Part shown: positions 8,019 to 47,435 of the stretch, one piece after another
Numbering within the stretch: position 1 is the stretch's first letter
Layout: each line of letters begins with the position of its first letter
Assembly (NCBI GenBank): GCA_031263495.1
Contig: JAISFQ010000149.1
Coordinates: 1-47,544 of the forward strand
DNA length: 47,544 bases
Direction: 5' to 3'
DNA from: Candidatus Nutricula glyptotermitis
GTDB taxonomy: Bacteria; Actinomycetota; Actinomycetes; Actinomycetales; Bifidobacteriaceae
The notes under the pieces: generated by a model
Seen by the model: only the letters and a program-made list of their open reading frames with translations
What the model was told of the DNA's origin: nothing
Databases searched by the model: none
Made by a program: the position numbers and the translations under genes

Positions 8019-8033
8019 ATATTAATTAGTAAT

Positions 8034-8208
8034 GAGTAAGGAGTAAGGAGTAATGAGTAAGGAGTAATGAGTAAGGAGTAATGAGTAAGGAGTAAGGAGT
8101 AATGAGTAAGGAGTAGTGAGTAAGGAGTAGTGAGTAAGGAGTAAGGAGTAAGGAGTAAGGAGTAGTGAGTAAGGAGTAAGGAGTAAGGAGTAATGAGTAA
8201 GGAGTAAT
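8034..8208. repeat. Heptanucleotide array, 25 units
   Basis: Exactly 25 tandem units of 7 bp (175 bp), each GAGTAAG, GAGTAAT or GAGTAGT, with no indels. The array lies directly upstream of the gltBD promoter. Because 7 is not a multiple of 3, the top strand has stops in all frames and the bottom strand is open in all frames. That explains the spurious LLITPYS-type reading frames seen at every copy. Confidence 0.95.
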
Positions 8209-8815: not shown

Positions 8816-8862
8816 AAACATGAGCAAACCAAGAAACAAAACCCAAACATCCAAAACCAACT

Positions 8863-9036
8863 CCCCCAACCTGACCAAAACGCCAGAGCGAATAATATAA
8901 CTTCAGAACAGATTAAAAATACATTATATTTACGAAGGGTCAAATGCTCAATCGCATTTTCCTCCCCCAAGGGTACAGGAGAAAATATAATGTATTTTTA
9001 ATCTGTTCTGAAAAAGTTGTGTTTTCAGCGAAGTAA
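8863..9036 (+). repeat. Long-stem element L
   Basis: A constant C-rich lead (CAACTCCCCCAACCTGACC) and GAGCGAATAATATAACTTC are followed by a perfect 30-bp inverted repeat (8902-8931 and 8983-9012). The loop holds the module-D hairpin (8937-8963) and a GGTACAGGAGAAAATA block. The element ends in GAAAAAGTTGTG and TTTTCAGCGAAGTA. An inverted homologue (element R, 13265-13610) lies on the other side of the surface-protein gene. It has the same flanks and GGTACAGGAGAAAATA block but unrelated arms. Confidence 0.85.
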
Positions 9037-9040
9037 CTTT

Positions 9041-9070
9041 TTGACATGGCACCCAAAACTGTGCTATAAT
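9041..9070 (+). promoter_or_regulatory. Promoter of surface-protein gene
   Basis: A perfect TTGACA (9041-9046) and a perfect TATAAT (9065-9070) are 18 nt apart. This gives a 5' leader of about 70 nt. It begins 5 nt after the end of element L. Confidence 0.75.
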
Positions 9071-9149
9071 TATTAACAGTATGTTTTGTTTAACAGATGA
9101 AATAGGGTGGTGCGTGTGAAAGTAATGGGTAAGTACAGGAGGATTACGT

Positions 9150-12100
9150 ATGAAAGACCTATTTCGAGCATTCGCTCACCGAAGCGAATCAATTGATGTT
9201 GCCGTCCCTCTATTCAAAGAGTCGGGAGATAGCATGGGAGTTAATAGTAGTAGTGTTAGGGCATATAAGATAAATGCAAAAACTTCTTTTGCGTTGTTGT
9301 TTATGTTTATTGCAGTATTGTTTGCAGTCTTTGCAGTTAATAATATAAATGCAGTTGCACCTACTAAGTTAACTGGCGTTACAATAAACGCTACTAATGT
9401 ACAGGGTGAATTGGCATTTACACTTTCTGCAGATCAGCACGATTCTTATGCGATAAAGATTGTCGATAAAGCAGGAAATACGGTTAAAAATATAACTAAT
9501 ATACAAAAAGGCGTGACTAGTTACAAAGTAACTAATTTAAAGCCTTCTAGTTATGATATTACTGTATCTGCTGTTGGGAGCAAGTCGAGAGATAGTGTGG
9601 TAGGTAATGTAAACGTTGTCATTAAAGCGAAAAATACTGATTATTCAGGCAGGTTTGATGATATAGACAGGCTGAGTAAAGGAAGGGCTAATGCTATTCA
9701 GTGGCTGTATCAATATGGCATAACGACTGGCGGAGATCCTAAAGATGTTAGCAAGTATTTGCCTGCTAAGGCTGTTAATCGCGGTTCAATGGCGCAGTTC
9801 TTGCATAGAATATCAGGAAGCCCGGTGACCAGTAAGAAGTATCTAAAAGTTTCTGATTTGAAAGGACTTTCAGCGGAGCGCCAAGATGATATTCGTTGGC
9901 TTGCAGCAGAGGGAATTACTGTGCTACAAATAGGTAATAGATATAAGCCAGCGGCTGTCGTTAATCGAGGTGCGATGGCAGAGTTTCTTTATAAAACAGC
10001 TGGATCGCCTGAGTATGCTATGACTGCAGCGGATAAAGCGCAGGTGCATGACATTAATCGCGTAAAGACAAATGTTCCGAGACAAAAGGCTATTGCTTGG
10101 CTAGTTAAAATGGGCATTTCTGTCTTAGATGCAGGAGATAACTATAATCCGCAAAATCCAGTTAATCGCGGGTCAATGGCTGAATTCTTGCGGAAACTTT
10201 ACCTTAGAATAATGGTTCCTGCAGCTTCACAAGTATCAGCTAATAATGATAGTTTAGTGCCAAACCAATCCTTTACTTATAGGACGCATAAGGTGACATT
10301 TGATGCAAATGGCGGTACAACTCCTGACCATCAAATAGTCCCTGTTGGGAATAAGGCAATTCCTCCAACGACTAGTAGGCAATACTACGCTTTCGCAGGT
10401 TGGTATACAAATGCTGATGGAACTGGTTCTAAGTTTGATTTTGCAACGCCACTCACTAAGGATGTTACACTTTATGCTGCTTGGAATGCTGTCAATGTTA
10501 TATTCTCTAGTGAATACACTTATGATGAAACTACTCTATCAGAATTGTTAACGTTGAAATTTAACATACCAATCGATTCTATTGATGGTGCAGTAGATGG
10601 GGCGCCTTATATGCTAACAACGTCAGATGACCATAAAACTGTTTCGATTGCTTTAACTGGAAGTGAAACAGGTGAAATAAACATTCCAGCATTTACGTTT
10701 ATAGCAATTAATGGGACAAAAATCGACAGTACAGCGACTATTCTTTTCAAAGTAGATGGAGAAGGGACTAGGGAATACTTATCCGATTTAGGAACTTTCC
10801 AGCTTGATTTTATAAACACGGAGGAAACTTATTTTGTTGCTGTGACAGATTATGCGCAAGATATAAAATGGATACACTTCTCTAGTGATTCTGATATTCT
10901 GACTACTCTTAGTGACATCGCTAGTCAAAATGAAGAAATCGACTTATTCTACTTTACAATTGTAGATGATTTAGATGCAGATCTAATCACTATCAAAGGA
11001 ACGGTGGATAGTGAAGCAAATGTAACTATTCCTGCTGGTTACACAGTAATTGTCGAAAATCAACTTGCAGTCGAAGGGGTTTTAGATATTTATGGAGTAC
11101 TAATTGTTCCTGCAGATGCTGAACTTACAATTAGCGGAACGATGACGCTACATGGCTCACTTTTGGTGCAGAATGACTACCTAGCGGCTCAAGCAGACGA
11201 AGCGGGTGGAAGATTAGTAATCGAAAGTAACGCAGAAGTCGTGGTGAGTGGAACTGCTACTGTTGAAGAAGGGTCTCAAATTGAAACCAGAGGAACAGTG
11301 ACAATAGATACTGATGCGACGCTTACAATTGAAGGCACTCTAAGAGTGGCAGCAGGGGCTGAAGCGGGCAAAGTCGAGGTTAAAGGCACTCTTGAAGTAA
11401 AAGGAAGTCTAACTGTCGAAGAGTCGAGTGTTCCTGGTGAAAGTGCTGGTAAGATTGAACTTAGTGGCAAGTTGATAATCGATGAGGAAGCGAAAGATAC
11501 TATTGAGATTCCAGATGGCGCACTTGAAGTTAAAGAAGGTGCAGATATTGAAGGTGGAGCAGATATTAAATTAGAGATTAATGTTTCAAATGCTGACGAT
11601 TTGAGCAATGCGATAAAAGCATCATCTACTGCAGATGGAGTAGGTCCAGAAGTTCTGATAAGATTGACTGAGGATTTCTATTCTGCAGTTAATCAAGGTG
11701 CAACGCTTCTAAACATCGGAGGAACTCCAGAAAACACTACGCCAATCACGATTCAAGGTTTAGGGACAGAGAGTGCAAATCCAAAACTCGAAGTAGGTGT
11801 TGCTATTACTACGCCAAACATTATTCTGAAAGACACGAAAATTGAGGTAACAGATGTCACAAAGACAGCGAAGTTGAAGTGGACAGAAACTGATTTCTAT
11901 CGCATAGCACTTGAAGTTTCATCGCTTGATGCAGATGGCGTGACAGTCGTAGCTCCTGCAATCACGGGTGTCGTAATTGACAATTGTGAAGTTACCATTA
12001 CCAATACATCATCAGATTCTGCTGACGCATGGACTGGTGGCGTTCACGTTACTAATTCACCTGATTCTTTTACGATTACGGACAGCAAGGTTACAGCGAC

Positions 12101-12842
12101 AGGAAAGACCACTTATGCAGTTGCAGCACTTATGCTCCACGCAGTTCCGAAGGTATTAACCGTCACAGGCAATGAGTTTCTTGGGAAATATGCTCAAGCA
12201 GCACCTAATAGCGCGAGGTATGACGCACCTGCATCAGCAGTGTTTTTCGTCAGAATCTATGACGATGCCGTTATTGATAGCATAAACTTTAGCAATAATA
12301 CGTATGGATTAGGCACGGATACTCTGCCAGAAGTTGGGACTGCATATAGCGTTTACATTAACAGTAGAACTTCAGAAGAGCCGACTATGGCTGGCGTGGA
12401 TGCGCTTAGAAACGATTATTTCTCGACGTTCGGTTCTTTATGGGCGACAGATGATGCGACCGATACAGACAGTGCAACCAAGCAAGTGTTGAATGCGCAC
12501 GTTGCAGATGTTACAGATGATGAGATTGGTTTTGTATTTATAGGAGAAGCGATAAAATACCAAACCAAGAACATGTTTGAACTCGAACAGTATCGCATAA
12601 AGGACGCTAAGGTAACCGATATCAGCAATTATGGCGATTGCATAAACGAAGCAACCGATGAGTACGATTGGGACACAGCATGTACTAATACTTTTTGCGG
12701 AACTCCAAATATCGGTAATACGTCATTCTATGGAAACCGTACAGTTACTGATGGCGAAGCGGATGCATTTGATCCTAGCGGTAGCGATAGATATTTCTAC
12801 TATACATATCTCACAAAAGATACGGACAATGTACCAGGTTGA
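9150..12842 (+). CDS. Large surface protein: SLH-like, InlB-type and beta-helix repeats
   Basis: A 1230-residue exported protein. A hydrophobic stretch (about 46-63) ending NAVA is a signal peptide or anchor. A fibronectin-like segment follows (about 71-160), then three actinobacterial SLH-like repeats (about 168-224, 232-286, 298-352) with NRGSMAQFL, NRGAMAEFL and NRGSMAEFL. A Listeria-Bacteroides (InlB B-type) repeat spans about 381-445 (VTFDANGG...FAGWYT...VTLYAAW). A long region of short beta-strand turns (about 620-820, with units such as VEVKGTLEVKGSL) suggests a beta-helix. There is no LPXTG motif, so the SLH-like part may bind the wall. Cysteines cluster near the end (GDC...TACTNTFCG). 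ATG at 9150 has AGGAGG upstream; ATG at 9234 (residue 29) also has GGGAGA and would give a more usual signal peptide. It probably acts in adhesion; the ligand is unknown. Confidence 0.85.
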   Translation: MKDLFRAFAHRSESIDVAVPLFKESGDSMGVNSSSVRAYKINAKTSFALLFMFIAVLFAVFAVNNINAVAPTKLTGVTINATNVQGELAFTLSADQHDSYAIKIVDKAGNTVKNITNIQKGVTSYKVTNLKPSSYDITVSAVGSKSRDSVVGNVNVVIKAKNTDYSGRFDDIDRLSKGRANAIQWLYQYGITTGGDPKDVSKYLPAKAVNRGSMAQFLHRISGSPVTSKKYLKVSDLKGLSAERQDDIRWLAAEGITVLQIGNRYKPAAVVNRGAMAEFLYKTAGSPEYAMTAADKAQVHDINRVKTNVPRQKAIAWLVKMGISVLDAGDNYNPQNPVNRGSMAEFLRKLYLRIMVPAASQVSANNDSLVPNQSFTYRTHKVTFDANGGTTPDHQIVPVGNKAIPPTTSRQYYAFAGWYTNADGTGSKFDFATPLTKDVTLYAAWNAVNVIFSSEYTYDETTLSELLTLKFNIPIDSIDGAVDGAPYMLTTSDDHKTVSIALTGSETGEINIPAFTFIAINGTKIDSTATILFKVDGEGTREYLSDLGTFQLDFINTEETYFVAVTDYAQDIKWIHFSSDSDILTTLSDIASQNEEIDLFYFTIVDDLDADLITIKGTVDSEANVTIPAGYTVIVENQLAVEGVLDIYGVLIVPADAELTISGTMTLHGSLLVQNDYLAAQADEAGGRLVIESNAEVVVSGTATVEEGSQIETRGTVTIDTDATLTIEGTLRVAAGAEAGKVEVKGTLEVKGSLTVEESSVPGESAGKIELSGKLIIDEEAKDTIEIPDGALEVKEGADIEGGADIKLEINVSNADDLSNAIKASSTADGVGPEVLIRLTEDFYSAVNQGATLLNIGGTPENTTPITIQGLGTESANPKLEVGVAITTPNIILKDTKIEVTDVTKTAKLKWTETDFYRIALEVSSLDADGVTVVAPAITGVVIDNCEVTITNTSSDSADAWTGGVHVTNSPDSFTITDSKVTATGKTTYAVAALMLHAVPKVLTVTGNEFLGKYAQAAPNSARYDAPASAVFFVRIYDDAVIDSINFSNNTYGLGTDTLPEVGTAYSVYINSRTSEEPTMAGVDALRNDYFSTFGSLWATDDATDTDSATKQVLNAHVADVTDDEIGFVFIGEAIKYQTKNMFELEQYRIKDAKVTDISNYGDCINEATDEYDWDTACTNTFCGTPNIGNTSFYGNRTVTDGEADAFDPSGSDRYFYYTYLTKDTDNVPG

Positions 12843-12881
12843 TATTCAAAAACAGGTAGGTATTAAGTGAAGCGCGTTGTT

Positions 12882-12911
12882 GGGGGAGGTTATTTCCTCA
12901 TTCCCTCCCCC
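12882..12911. terminator. GC-rich hairpin after surface-protein gene
   Basis: GGGGGAGG (12882-12889) pairs with CCTCCCCC (12904-12911), 40 nt after the stop codon. The stem is strong, but no T run follows, so termination is a guess from position and stability. Confidence 0.4.
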
Positions 12912-12998
12912 ATTTCCCCCTGTTATATCCCCCGCATTACCAAAGTTCTTGATATTGCTCCACAATTAGTGTACTATATTAACTGTAAGTTTTGATTT

Positions 12999-13145
12999 AA
13001 TACTTTGATTAGTTATGGAGACTTGCCTGAGTGGCCGCTGGCGCTATTGCGAAAGCAATATAGCCAAAAGCAACAAAGTGGCGCCCTGCAAAGGGTGTCC
13101 CTTTCGGCTAGTGTTTATAAGAATTTAATACTTTGATTAGTTATG
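12999..13145 (+). pseudogene. Broken duplicate of tRNA-Ser 5' end
   Basis: The first 21 nt of the intact tRNA-Ser (GGAGACTTGCCTGAGTGGCC and the next G) are repeated at 13017-13037, together with the 18 nt upstream. The copy then runs into unrelated hairpins: GGCGCTATTGC-GAAA-GCAATATAGCC, and AAAGGG-TGT-CCCTTT. The second resembles an inverted stretch of the tRNA's variable centre. AATACTTTGATTAGTTATG occurs three times (12999, 13127, 13160). No complete cloverleaf can be formed, so this is a remnant and not a gene. Confidence 0.7.
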
Positions 13146-13162
13146 AAAAGATTGATTATAAT
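13133..13162 (+). promoter_or_regulatory. Promoter of tRNA-Ser
   Basis: TTGATT (13133-13138) and a perfect TATAAT (13157-13162) are 18 nt apart. The tRNA starts 16 nt downstream. The -35 lies in one of the three direct repeats. Confidence 0.5.
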
Positions 13163-13177
13163 ACTTTGATTAGTTAT

Positions 13178-13264
13178 GGAGACTTGCCTGAGTGGCCGAA
13201 AGGGGCACCCTGCTAAGGTGTTATAGGCGTTCGTCTATCCGGGGTTCGAATCCCCGAGTCTCCG
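13178..13264 (+). tRNA. tRNA-Ser (GCT anticodon)
   Basis: An 87-nt class II tRNA. The acceptor stem pairs GGAGACT (13178-13184) with AGTCTCC (13257-13263), discriminator G. The anticodon GCT is at 13212-13214. There is a long variable arm (TATAGGCGTTCGTCTA) and a GGGGTTCGAATCCCC T-arm. CCA is not encoded. Element R begins immediately after it. Confidence 0.95.
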
Positions 13265-13610
13265 CATGTACTTCGCTGAAAACACAACTTTTTCATGAAA
13301 AATAAGAAATATGTTTATTCTTTTTTGTTTGCTACGCAAATAATAAATCATTTTTATTTTCTCCTGTACCGACGAAGCGGTCGTTACATCTTACTTGATG
13401 TTATGCTTGACATTAAAGTGCTGCATACCTAATCTAACTGTTACCGCTTCTTGGTGAAGTCGAAAATAAAAACAATTTATTATTTGCTATACATTTGGTA
13501 AAAAACATAAACATATTTCTTATTTTTCATGAAGTTATATTATTCGCTCAGGGTTAAGGTCAGGTTGGGGGAGTTGGGATTGATTGTTGGGTTTTGTTTG
13601 TTGTTTGGTA
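13265..13610 (-). repeat. Long-stem element R (inverted homologue of L)
   Basis: Read on the minus strand it has the same lead as element L (CAACTCCCCCAACCTGACC), then GAGCGAATAATATAACTTC. Next comes a stem of about 70 bp: 25 bp perfect (TTCATGAAAAATAAG...) at 13294-13318 with 13509-13533, then interrupted pairing including AGCAAATAATAAA. A loop of about 100 nt has a GAAGCGGT/ACCGCTTC pair. GGTACAGGAGAAAATA follows, then the complementary arm and GAAAAAGTTGTG with TTTTCAGCGAAGTA. The arms share no sequence with those of L. A partial second copy of the lead lies at about 13635-13695. Confidence 0.85.
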
Positions 13611-13702
13611 GACGTGGGTGATGCGCGGCGAGAGCTAGATGTTGCTCGGGGTTAAGGTCAGGTTGTGGGTGTTTTTGCTTGAGTGTTGGGTTTATCTCAT
13701 AT

Positions 13703-13811
13703 TTGTCATCTAGGTAGCGTGTGAAACGCGCGACACGGGATCTGGCTTCTTCGCGCGTAACGCACTTTCTCGCTACCACAGATCCCGCATCGCTTCGCTG
13801 CTAGATGACAA
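13703..13811. repeat. Repeat C, copy 1 (MITE-like)
   Basis: A 109-bp element bounded by perfect 11-bp inverted ends TTGTCATCTAG and CTAGATGACAA. It has internal complementary blocks ACGGGATCTG and CAGATCCCG. A second full copy in opposite orientation lies at 16600-16710, and fragments lie at 25623-25669 and 40868-40885. There is no coding capacity, so any movement would depend on a transposase elsewhere. Confidence 0.8.
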
Positions 13812-13819
13812 GGGGTACT

Positions 13820-13905
13820 TCTGAATTCCGCACCGCGAAACGAAGTGTAGCGTGATGCGGAATCTTAATTAATGTGTGAGCGGCATAGCCGTGAACTCAT
13901 GTACT
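13820..13905. repeat. Repeat B, copy 3 (half)
   Basis: Only the left half is present: CTGAATTCCGCACCGCGAAA, then GTGTAGCGTGATGCGG with AATCTTAATTAA. It is followed by the hairpin variant GTGAGCGGCATAGCCGTGAA, whose inner stem is CGGC/GCCG. It lies directly upstream of the aldolase promoter. Confidence 0.75.
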
Positions 13906-16599: not shown

Positions 16600-16710
16600 T
16601 TGTCATCTAGCAAGCGAATGCGATGCGGGATCTGCATCAGCAAGAAAACACGTACAGCCCTTGAAGCCAGATCCCGTGTCGCGCACTACCGTACGCTACC
16701 TAGATGACAA
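16600..16710. repeat. Repeat C, copy 2 (MITE-like)
   Basis: A 111-bp element with TTGTCATCTAG/CTAGATGACAA ends and internal GCGGGATCTG and CAGATCCCGT blocks. It is inverted relative to the copy at 13703, so the two bracket fba, the small membrane gene and xerD. It stops 5 nt before the end of the convergent permease gene. Confidence 0.85.
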
Positions 16711-16715
16711 GTGCA

Positions 16716-29495: not shown

Positions 29496-29545
29496 CACCT
29501 TTTATTTAATTAATAGTTAATAATTAATAATGAATAATTAGTAAG

Positions 29546-29608
29546 GAGTAAGGAGTAAGGAGTAAGGAGTAATGAGTAATGAGTAATGAGTAATGAGTAA
29601 TGAGTAAT
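29546..29608. repeat. Heptanucleotide array, 9 units
   Basis: Three GAGTAAG units are followed by six GAGTAAT units, preceded by TTAATAATTAATAATGAATA. It lies 50 bp upstream of the gatC -10. Confidence 0.9.
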
Positions 29609-29643
29609 GAGATTCGGAGTTCGCTATCGATCGTACTCTCTCT

Positions 29644-29779
29644 CAGAATTCCGCACGTAGATGCGGAATCTTAAAACTAGTGTGAGCGCATGCGAACACC
29701 ATTAAATGCATTCGCTTCGCTCATACATTAATTAAGATTCCGCATCTCGCTACACTTCGTTTCGCGGTGCGGAATTCAG
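29644..29779. repeat. Repeat B, copy 6 (complete)
   Basis: A full element. It begins CAGAATTCCGCACG and TAGATGCGGAATCTTAA, with the hairpin GTGAGCGCATGCGAACAC. The closing arm is TTAAGATTCCGCATC, TCGCTACACTTCGTTTCGCG and GTGCGGAATTCAG. It lies between the nadE and gatC ends of the gap 29483-29851, which has no gene. Confidence 0.85.
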
Positions 29780-29851
29780 AACAGGGGGTACTAGATGAGA
29801 ATGTAAGTCAGTTCGTACAACCCACATATTCTGGAACGCCATCTGTATGCG

Positions 29852-36412: not shown

Positions 36413-36527
36413 CCTTTATTTCGGAGTGTGTAGCACTCTAAAATGTCTGGGATTTTTTTATGTAACTCTTTTATTTCTGCAATAACCGCTCTTCGGAATC
36501 TAGCACAACTCCACCTCAGAATTCCGC

Positions 36528-36716
36528 ACAACTCCACCTCAGAATTCCTGCGTAGGCAGGAATCTTATAACAAAGTATTGCGTAGCAATGCAATTAAAGG
36601 CATTCGCCTAGTGGCTCATACTAGTTTTAAGATTCCGCATCACGCTACACTTCGTTTCGCGGTGCGGAATTCAGAGTGAAAGTGACTTGCTAGTACTCGC
36701 GGTGCGGAATTCTGAG
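36528..36716. repeat. Repeat B, copy 7
   Basis: It has a doubled left end (CAGAATTCCGCACAACTCCA then CAGAATTCCTGCGTAGGCAG with GAATCTTA) and ATTGCGTAGCAAT. The right arm follows (TTAAGATTCCGCATCACGCT to GTGCGGAATTCAG), then an extra GTGCGGAATTCTGAGG. The left stem uses TTCCTGC/GCAGGAA and the right stem TTCCGCA/TGCGGAA. Confidence 0.8.
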
Positions 36717-36748
36717 GTGAAGTATGAGCATAAGCGAACTCCGCATCC

Positions 36749-36840
36749 ATTACTCCTTACTCATTACTCCTTACTCATTACTCCTTGCTCATTACTCCTT
36801 ACTCATTATTCCTTACTCATTATTAACTACTCATTACTCA
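36749..36840. repeat. Heptanucleotide array (minus orientation)
   Basis: Units ATTACTC, CTTACTC and a few variants (CTTGCTC, ATTAACTACTC) fill about 90 bp just before the promoter of the second binding-protein gene. This array, repeat B copy 7 and the two divergent promoters account for the gap 36350-36894. Confidence 0.9.
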
Positions 36841-40407: not shown

Positions 40408-40436
40408 TTAATAATTAGTAATTAATAATTAGTAAT

Positions 40437-40506
40437 GAGGAAGGAGTAATGAGTAAGGAGTAATGAGTAAGGAGTAATGAGTAAGGAGTAATGAGTAATG
40501 AGTAAT
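40437..40506. repeat. Heptanucleotide array, 10 units
   Basis: One GAGGAAG unit, then alternating GAGTAAT and GAGTAAG, ending with GAGTAAT units, exactly 70 bp. It begins 30 bp after the permease stop. Confidence 0.9.
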
Positions 40507-40547
40507 GGATGCGGAGTTCGCTTATGCTCACACTCCACCTCAGAATT

Positions 40548-47195: not shown

Positions 47196-47269
47196 CACTA
47201 TCTCCTTTAGAATTTAAAAACCTCGTCATATATATTGTAGCACAATTTTGGTAATGAGTAGTTAATAAT

Positions 47270-47388
47270 GAGTAAGGAGTAATGAGTAAGGAGTAATGAG
47301 TAAGGAATAATGAGTAATGAGTAAGGAGTAATGAGTAAGGAATAATGAGTAATTAGTAATGAGTAAGGAGTAATGAGTAAGGAATAAT
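47270..47388. repeat. Heptanucleotide array, 17 units
   Basis: Units GAGTAAG, GAGTAAT, GAATAAT and TAGTAAT run without indels for 119 bp, upstream of the SepIVA-like gene. Confidence 0.9.
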
Positions 47389-47435
47389 TGGGAATCGGAA
47401 TTCGCCCCACCTACAACTCAGCGTTAAAATAGGGA

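Follow-up and report, generated by a model that had tools for sequence, protein, structure and literature searches.

Dispersed hairpin repeats with co-varying arms whose 3' ends lie almost exactly at gene edges in Candidatus Nutricula glyptotermitis

Nutricula glyptotermitis belongs to the Bifidobacteriaceae and is associated with termites (PMC11707648). In the 47,544-nt stretch of its DNA that was analysed here (the window), two elements on opposite strands, L and R, share constant blocks around self-complementary arms that differ between them. The initial annotation described these arms as unrelated and as having been replaced together while pairing was kept. Are L and R the result of separate insertions, of selection for a structure, or of a mechanism that copies one arm onto the other? 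Their features are collected in Table 1.

Table 1. Positions of the features of elements L and R in the window, with the strand on which each is read
Feature	Position	Strand	Remark
L lead, C-rich and G-poor	8839-8885	+	one unit
L hairpin	8886-9033	+	GAGCGAA to TTTTCAGCGAAG
L 5' arm	8902-8931	+	arm class A
L 3' arm	8983-9012	+	perfect complement of 5' arm
L inner module	8937-8962	+	dispersed small hairpin repeat GGGTCAAATGCTCAATCGCATTTTCC
L conserved inner block	8972-8985	+	GGTACAGGAGAAAA
L constant 3' end	9022-9033	+	TTTTCAGCGAAG; 7 nt upstream of likely -35 box TTGACA (9041-9046), SLH gene
R hairpin	13271-13549	-	GAGCGAA (13543-13549) to TTTTCAGCGAAG (13271-13282)
R outer 5' arm	13500-13533	-	arm class B
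R outer 3' arm	13292-13325	-	
R inner 5' arm	13453-13487	-	continues into CGACTTCACC
R inner 3' arm	13336-13370	-	with GGTACAGGAG
R X core	13355-13466	-	internal loop CGACTTCACC/GGTACAGGAG and covarying stem GAAGCGGT/ACCGCTTC
R lead	13550-13693	-	two C-rich units
tRNA-Ser(GCT)	13178-13265	+	3' end 5 nt from R constant end

Between the two elements lies the gene of a 1230-aa surface-type protein (9150-12842) with an S-layer homology domain, a Listeria-Bacteroides repeat and a bactofilin-like stretch. Immediately before the intact tRNA-Ser gene lies a broken copy of its promoter and first tRNA part (12987-13120), which is 90% identical over 51 nt and carries a hairpin insert. Other dispersed nested palindromes (GATCCCG...CTAGATGACA and AAGATTCCGCATC...TGCGGAATTCTGAGG) occupy intergenic space at 13700-13870, 16600-16712, 29620-29790 and 36520-36800, and their arms also seem to change pairwise. 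Minisatellite-like GAGTAAGGAGTAAT runs are found close to gene starts at 8020-8200, 29500-29600, 40410-40510 and 47250-47430.

The blocks and arms of L and R lie where the initial annotation had placed them, and both elements have the lead, GAGCGAATAATATAACTTC, GGTACAGGAGAAAATA and GAAAAAGTTGTGTTTTCAGCGAAGTA in common. The inverted repeat of L is indeed perfect over 30 bp; in 60 Markov-simulated windows of matching composition, no perfect arm exceeds 14. R contains two nested arm pairs of 34 and 35 bp, the outer 94% and the inner 83% complementary. Folded as RNA on their own strands, L reaches -57.1 kcal/mol (z -9.6) and R -101.6 kcal/mol (z -14.2). Full closure of the basal stem (GCGAA..AACTTC against GAAAAAGTTGTGTTTTCAGCG) depends on G·T pairs and is therefore possible only on the strand of the element itself.

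Are the arms really unrelated? They are homologous: when they are aligned without gaps, 14 of 25 aligned pairs agree between L and R, and each of the 11 that differ has changed on both sides. The stems are not counterparts over their whole length, as had been assumed: that of R is longer because of a nested inner module absent from L, so that an extra arm pair and a structured core stand where L has GGGTCAAATGCTCAATCGCATTTTCC. Copies elsewhere in the same genome (G000, whose contigs carry the C numbers used below) bridge the two elements. C115 matches L at outer positions 3, 4, 6, 8 and 13 and R at inner positions 11, 19, 20 and 23-25, and in both C115 and C85 outer arms of the L type enclose inner modules of the R type. 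Of the proposed joint replacement the paired change stands, but not the wholesale exchange; judged from these alignments, arm change is stepwise or patchwork and not a swap for unrelated sequence. That two unrelated transposon ends were inserted independently, which the annotation had already doubted, is suggested only by the low similarity of L and R when those two are taken alone. The intermediates refute it, the arm classes align ungapped with nearly all differences paired, and we consider it scarcely credible.

L and R are members of a hairpin repeat family with about 49 copies, which were collected from the organism's own genome in searches that used L, R and constant motifs as queries, and whose arms covary. 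The count comprises 32 complete hairpins that were extracted, all of about 280 nt or shorter, and about 17 others that are truncated, armless or variant, in an assembly of 1.547 Mb with 76.95% completeness, that is, with 23% missing. Compared with solved chains, the GyrA of this genome comes closest to the mycobacterial type. The arms fall into class A (L, C85, C115, C151), class B (R, C81, C155), class C with the majority of copies, and D1/D2, the core of which differs from that of the other classes, plus C40 and C96. A small open reading frame after AGGAG in R (GGTACAGGAGAAAATAAAAATG) was rejected, as the arm classes do not preserve the frame. Conserved internal loops of two recurring kinds, CGACTTCACC/GGTACAGGAG and TTCGTAAAAGC/GCCTAGAA, enclose modules that interchange among copies: a covarying stem (GAAGCGGT/ACCGCTTC or GAGGAAGT/GCTTCCTC), a simple perfect hairpin (C40, C96), or the dispersed small hairpin repeat, nested up to four times in equal numbers on both sides (C132). 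Variants of the GTACAGGAG motif occur at two nesting levels in C34, C53, C147 and C127, and the cores contain invariant G·T pairs. The small repeat GGGTCAAATG...CATTTTCC is nested within single hairpins in equal numbers, up to four per side (L074, contig C132; L129, contig C89), which suggests that both arms are extended in one step.

Copies without paired arms, named in the initial annotation as the observation that would speak against it, do exist as a minority. The outer arms of the hybrids C29, C149 and C138 pair poorly, so a copy can persist without pairing, and C26 and C43 are armless. Slippage between the 11-bp direct repeats TTCATGAAAAA would leave such armless remnants; read in this way, they suggest that the hairpin forms in vivo. 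In three arm classes 99%, 96% and 100% of the cells are paired. Several contigs terminate within D1 copies, where assembly artefacts near contig ends are possible; C29, C149, L and R are all remote from a contig end.

What, then, is the unit that is copied? At five loci, D1 hairpins share 95.5% identity. The value is 59% for the 60 nt before them, 44% for the 100 nt further out and 48% for the 3' flanks, the latter two being about the level of unrelated sequence under the same aligner. The copied unit is thus the hairpin GAGCGAA...TTTTCAGCGAAG, independently of the lead. Lead units (34% C, 12% G) precede nearly all hairpins in arrays of one to several and, in the available DNA, always enter another lead unit or a hairpin. 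As to a target-site duplication, AGCGAA is present on both hairpin sides in nearly all copies but is identical everywhere; no empty site was found for comparison.

Can we tell which molecule folds? In the three arm classes, 12, 7 and 9 pairs have changed on both sides, a result reached by none of 500 shuffles, and sliding the structure loses the signal. When distinct states are counted once per class in segments picked by hand, there are 41 further Watson-Crick states, changed on both sides, and 33 wobble or unpaired states (23 G·T, 5 A·C, 5 other). An automated recount, which treats both strands alike because folding was done with G·T forbidden, gives 15 G·T versus 3 A·C after duplicate removal (one-sided binomial p ~0.004); both tallies are small and come from copies related by descent. 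The + strand fold is the more stable one in 22 of 32 copies, or 25 of 32 after shuffle correction. Constraint on a double-stranded cruciform, or neutral arm copying, predicts as many G·T as A·C mismatches, and the inequality therefore points to folding of the + strand alone. The folded entity is most likely this strand, as RNA or single-stranded DNA, rather than a symmetric cruciform, and selection of a single-stranded structure, one of the two options first proposed, does appear to operate. The bias is not general: in the small inner module it runs the other way (A·C 2, G·T 0). This counts against the mobile repeat proposed below, as do the low mismatch counts and the shared ancestry of the copies.

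The second option dispenses with structural selection: template switching during replication of quasi-palindromes copies arm onto arm and would keep any hairpin self-complementary. The perfect 30-bp arm of L is consistent with this, as is a second hairpin family in the genome that covaries too. The 41 double changes also include 11 transversions besides 30 transitions; transitions can go via a G·T intermediate, and for transversions there is no wobble intermediate. These transversions are found mostly in L and C40 and leave room for arm-to-arm copying. As an account of the whole family it is nonetheless improbable: the ratios of 15:3 and 23:5 depart from the equality that it predicts, and it leaves the conserved internal loops and the invariant G·T core pairs unexplained.

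The family consists of dispersed hairpin repeats with co-varying arms, and their 3' end lies almost exactly at gene edges. In nearly all copies this constant end faces a functional boundary: a stop codon, a tRNA or tmRNA 3' end, or a -35 box. The stop codon of a convergent ORF is 1 nt away in C155, C115, C29, C11a, C130 and C132, at distance 0 in C11b, -1 in C96 and -2 in C34, and a stop TGA falls within the element end in C85, C83, C89 and C101. Ten convergent ORFs were scanned, and those with a C-terminal domain match look complete (EF-G, DnaB, thioredoxin-reductase-like, pyrophosphatase, UppS). A tRNA or tmRNA 3' end lies 5-6 nt past TTTTCAGCGAAG in R, C26, C36a, C36b, C40, C145 and C149, and a likely -35 box, read by eye, about 5-8 nt past it in L, C81, C53, C9, C95, C41, C7 and C43. 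On the 5' side about 100-700 nt are taken up by other repeats, and genes run in either direction. Ancestral spacers that were very short, together with selection against insertion into genes, would explain part of this placement, its precision not fully.

The main rival explanation is a cis-acting RNA, an insulator or terminator in which the + strand lead, as a Rho-type rut site, and the strong hairpin stop transcription before it reaches the neighbouring gene, whether it would run antisense across a convergent gene or a tRNA, or into the next promoter. The tight fit of the 3' end to stop codons, tRNA and tmRNA ends and -35 boxes agrees with such a role, and so do the excess of G·T on the + strand and a C-rich, G-poor lead that is invariably followed by a hairpin or a further lead unit. 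On the other hand, lead-side genes are oriented toward the element in only about 6 of the 17 cases that could be read, no gene reads into L or R from that side, the lead has no evident promoter, and hairpins are copied independently of it. We hold a cis-acting role to be possible, though unlikely. An intrinsic terminator of the neighbouring gene was rejected; it would need the minus strand, where the mismatches become unfavourable A·C.

Outside its own genome the family has no match in 188 other genomes of the bacterial family (two covariance models), in about 395 other genomes of the order (one covariance model), or in phages, plasmids and viral contigs. A blastn search against 58 relatives gave no homologue and a single AT-rich match at chance level, and a contig pattern scan gave 11 matches in scattered phyla, about the number expected by chance (estimate ~15). 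Rfam returned only tRNAs at the gathering threshold and nothing else credible up to E 1. As to the machinery, a Y1 transposase (RAYT, PF01797) has no match in the 77%-complete genome in a search that was positive in five control genomes, and an rve-type transposase has no match there; an IS91-type Y2_Tnp has none either, in a search that carries no information, as no control was positive. The sole reverse transcriptase found is of the AbiP2-like defence type and unlinked to the element, on which ground a retron or group II origin was rejected. Its gene (L141, 859-2433; G000:C121) adjoins that of an H+-pyrophosphatase.

We give an even chance to the reading that a single non-autonomous mobile hairpin repeat, REPIN-like in its working, about 145-280 nt long and with C-rich lead units on its 5' side, has L and R among its copies. 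The genome shows many copies, recent copying of hairpins alone to unrelated loci, pervasive paired arm changes, mismatch types in favour of one folded strand and exchangeable inner modules. A transposase-like activity, with its substrate and identity, is what we infer beyond these observations. The copying machinery would act on the folded + strand, as single-stranded DNA or RNA, and would recognise two kinds of feature, the bulged constant base (GAGCGAA / TTTTCAGCGAAG) and the internal loops (CGACTTCACC/GGTACAGGAG or TTCGTAAAAGC/GCCTAGAA). The stem would be free to drift in sequence provided that pairing holds, and hybrids or deletions, with their non-pairing arms, would be dead ends. Arm-from-arm copying during replication probably restored some perfect stems, for example that of L. 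Against the mobile repeat stand the negative searches for a Y1 or rve-type transposase and an AbiP2 enzyme as the only reverse transcriptase, in a genome that is 23% incomplete, and random insertion alone does not explain a 3' end 0-1 nt from many gene boundaries. More tentative still is the wider description as a modular single-stranded hairpin that multiplies without a known transposase type, keeps a one-strand fold via co-varying arms, swaps inner domains and docks precisely at a stop codon, tRNA 3' end or -35 box.

Detectable transposable elements have been reported as lacking in the host clade (PMC11707648), and the L/R family is a mobile-looking repeat within it. Dozens of paralogous hairpins in one genome offer a natural experiment, in which strand-fold selection can be set against neutral arm copying via G·T/A·C asymmetry. 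Their gene-edge placement also raises the question whether repeats of this kind act as transcriptional insulators in symbionts with reduced genomes.

How does the family compare with known systems? Like integron attC sites, it has constant boxes flanking variable self-complementary arms, and one strand folds. The core sites of attC are R''/R' = RYYYAAC/GTTRRRY; on inspection the family has no such boxes, nor are there cassettes between its copies, and attC was rejected. A C-rich, G-poor lead followed by structure recalls Rho-dependent terminators (rut site plus pause), but most copies have no co-directional upstream gene. With MITEs and Correia-NEMIS or ERIC-type repeats (PMC2229807) the family shares being non-autonomous, multicopy and intergenic, with a long foldback beside gene ends and promoters; it differs in having no clear target duplication or visible parent transposon, and in its several arm classes, paired substitutions and exchangeable inner domain. 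REPINs are REP doublets that form hairpins and are mobilised by RAYT; their spacer is variable, its length and its pairing are important, and compensatory changes occur often (PMC3116915). The L/R family departs from them in its length of 150-280 nt, nested internal-loop modules, C-rich lead units and tight gene-edge placement, and in its ends, which are GAGCGAA and TTTTCAGCGAAG instead of GTAG/CGTC-tagged REP palindromes; we do not file it as a REPIN, since both RAYT (a Y1 transposase) and the REP tags were looked for and not found. The likeness lies in dispersed extragenic hairpins with conserved end motifs, a variable paired spacer and a proposed single-stranded intermediate; for REPINs, reads that span an excised hairpin have been seen. 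Conserved ends around a hairpin with compensatory changes in its variable middle are present here as well, and the layout for which the initial annotation knew of no described family thus resembles that of the REPINs.
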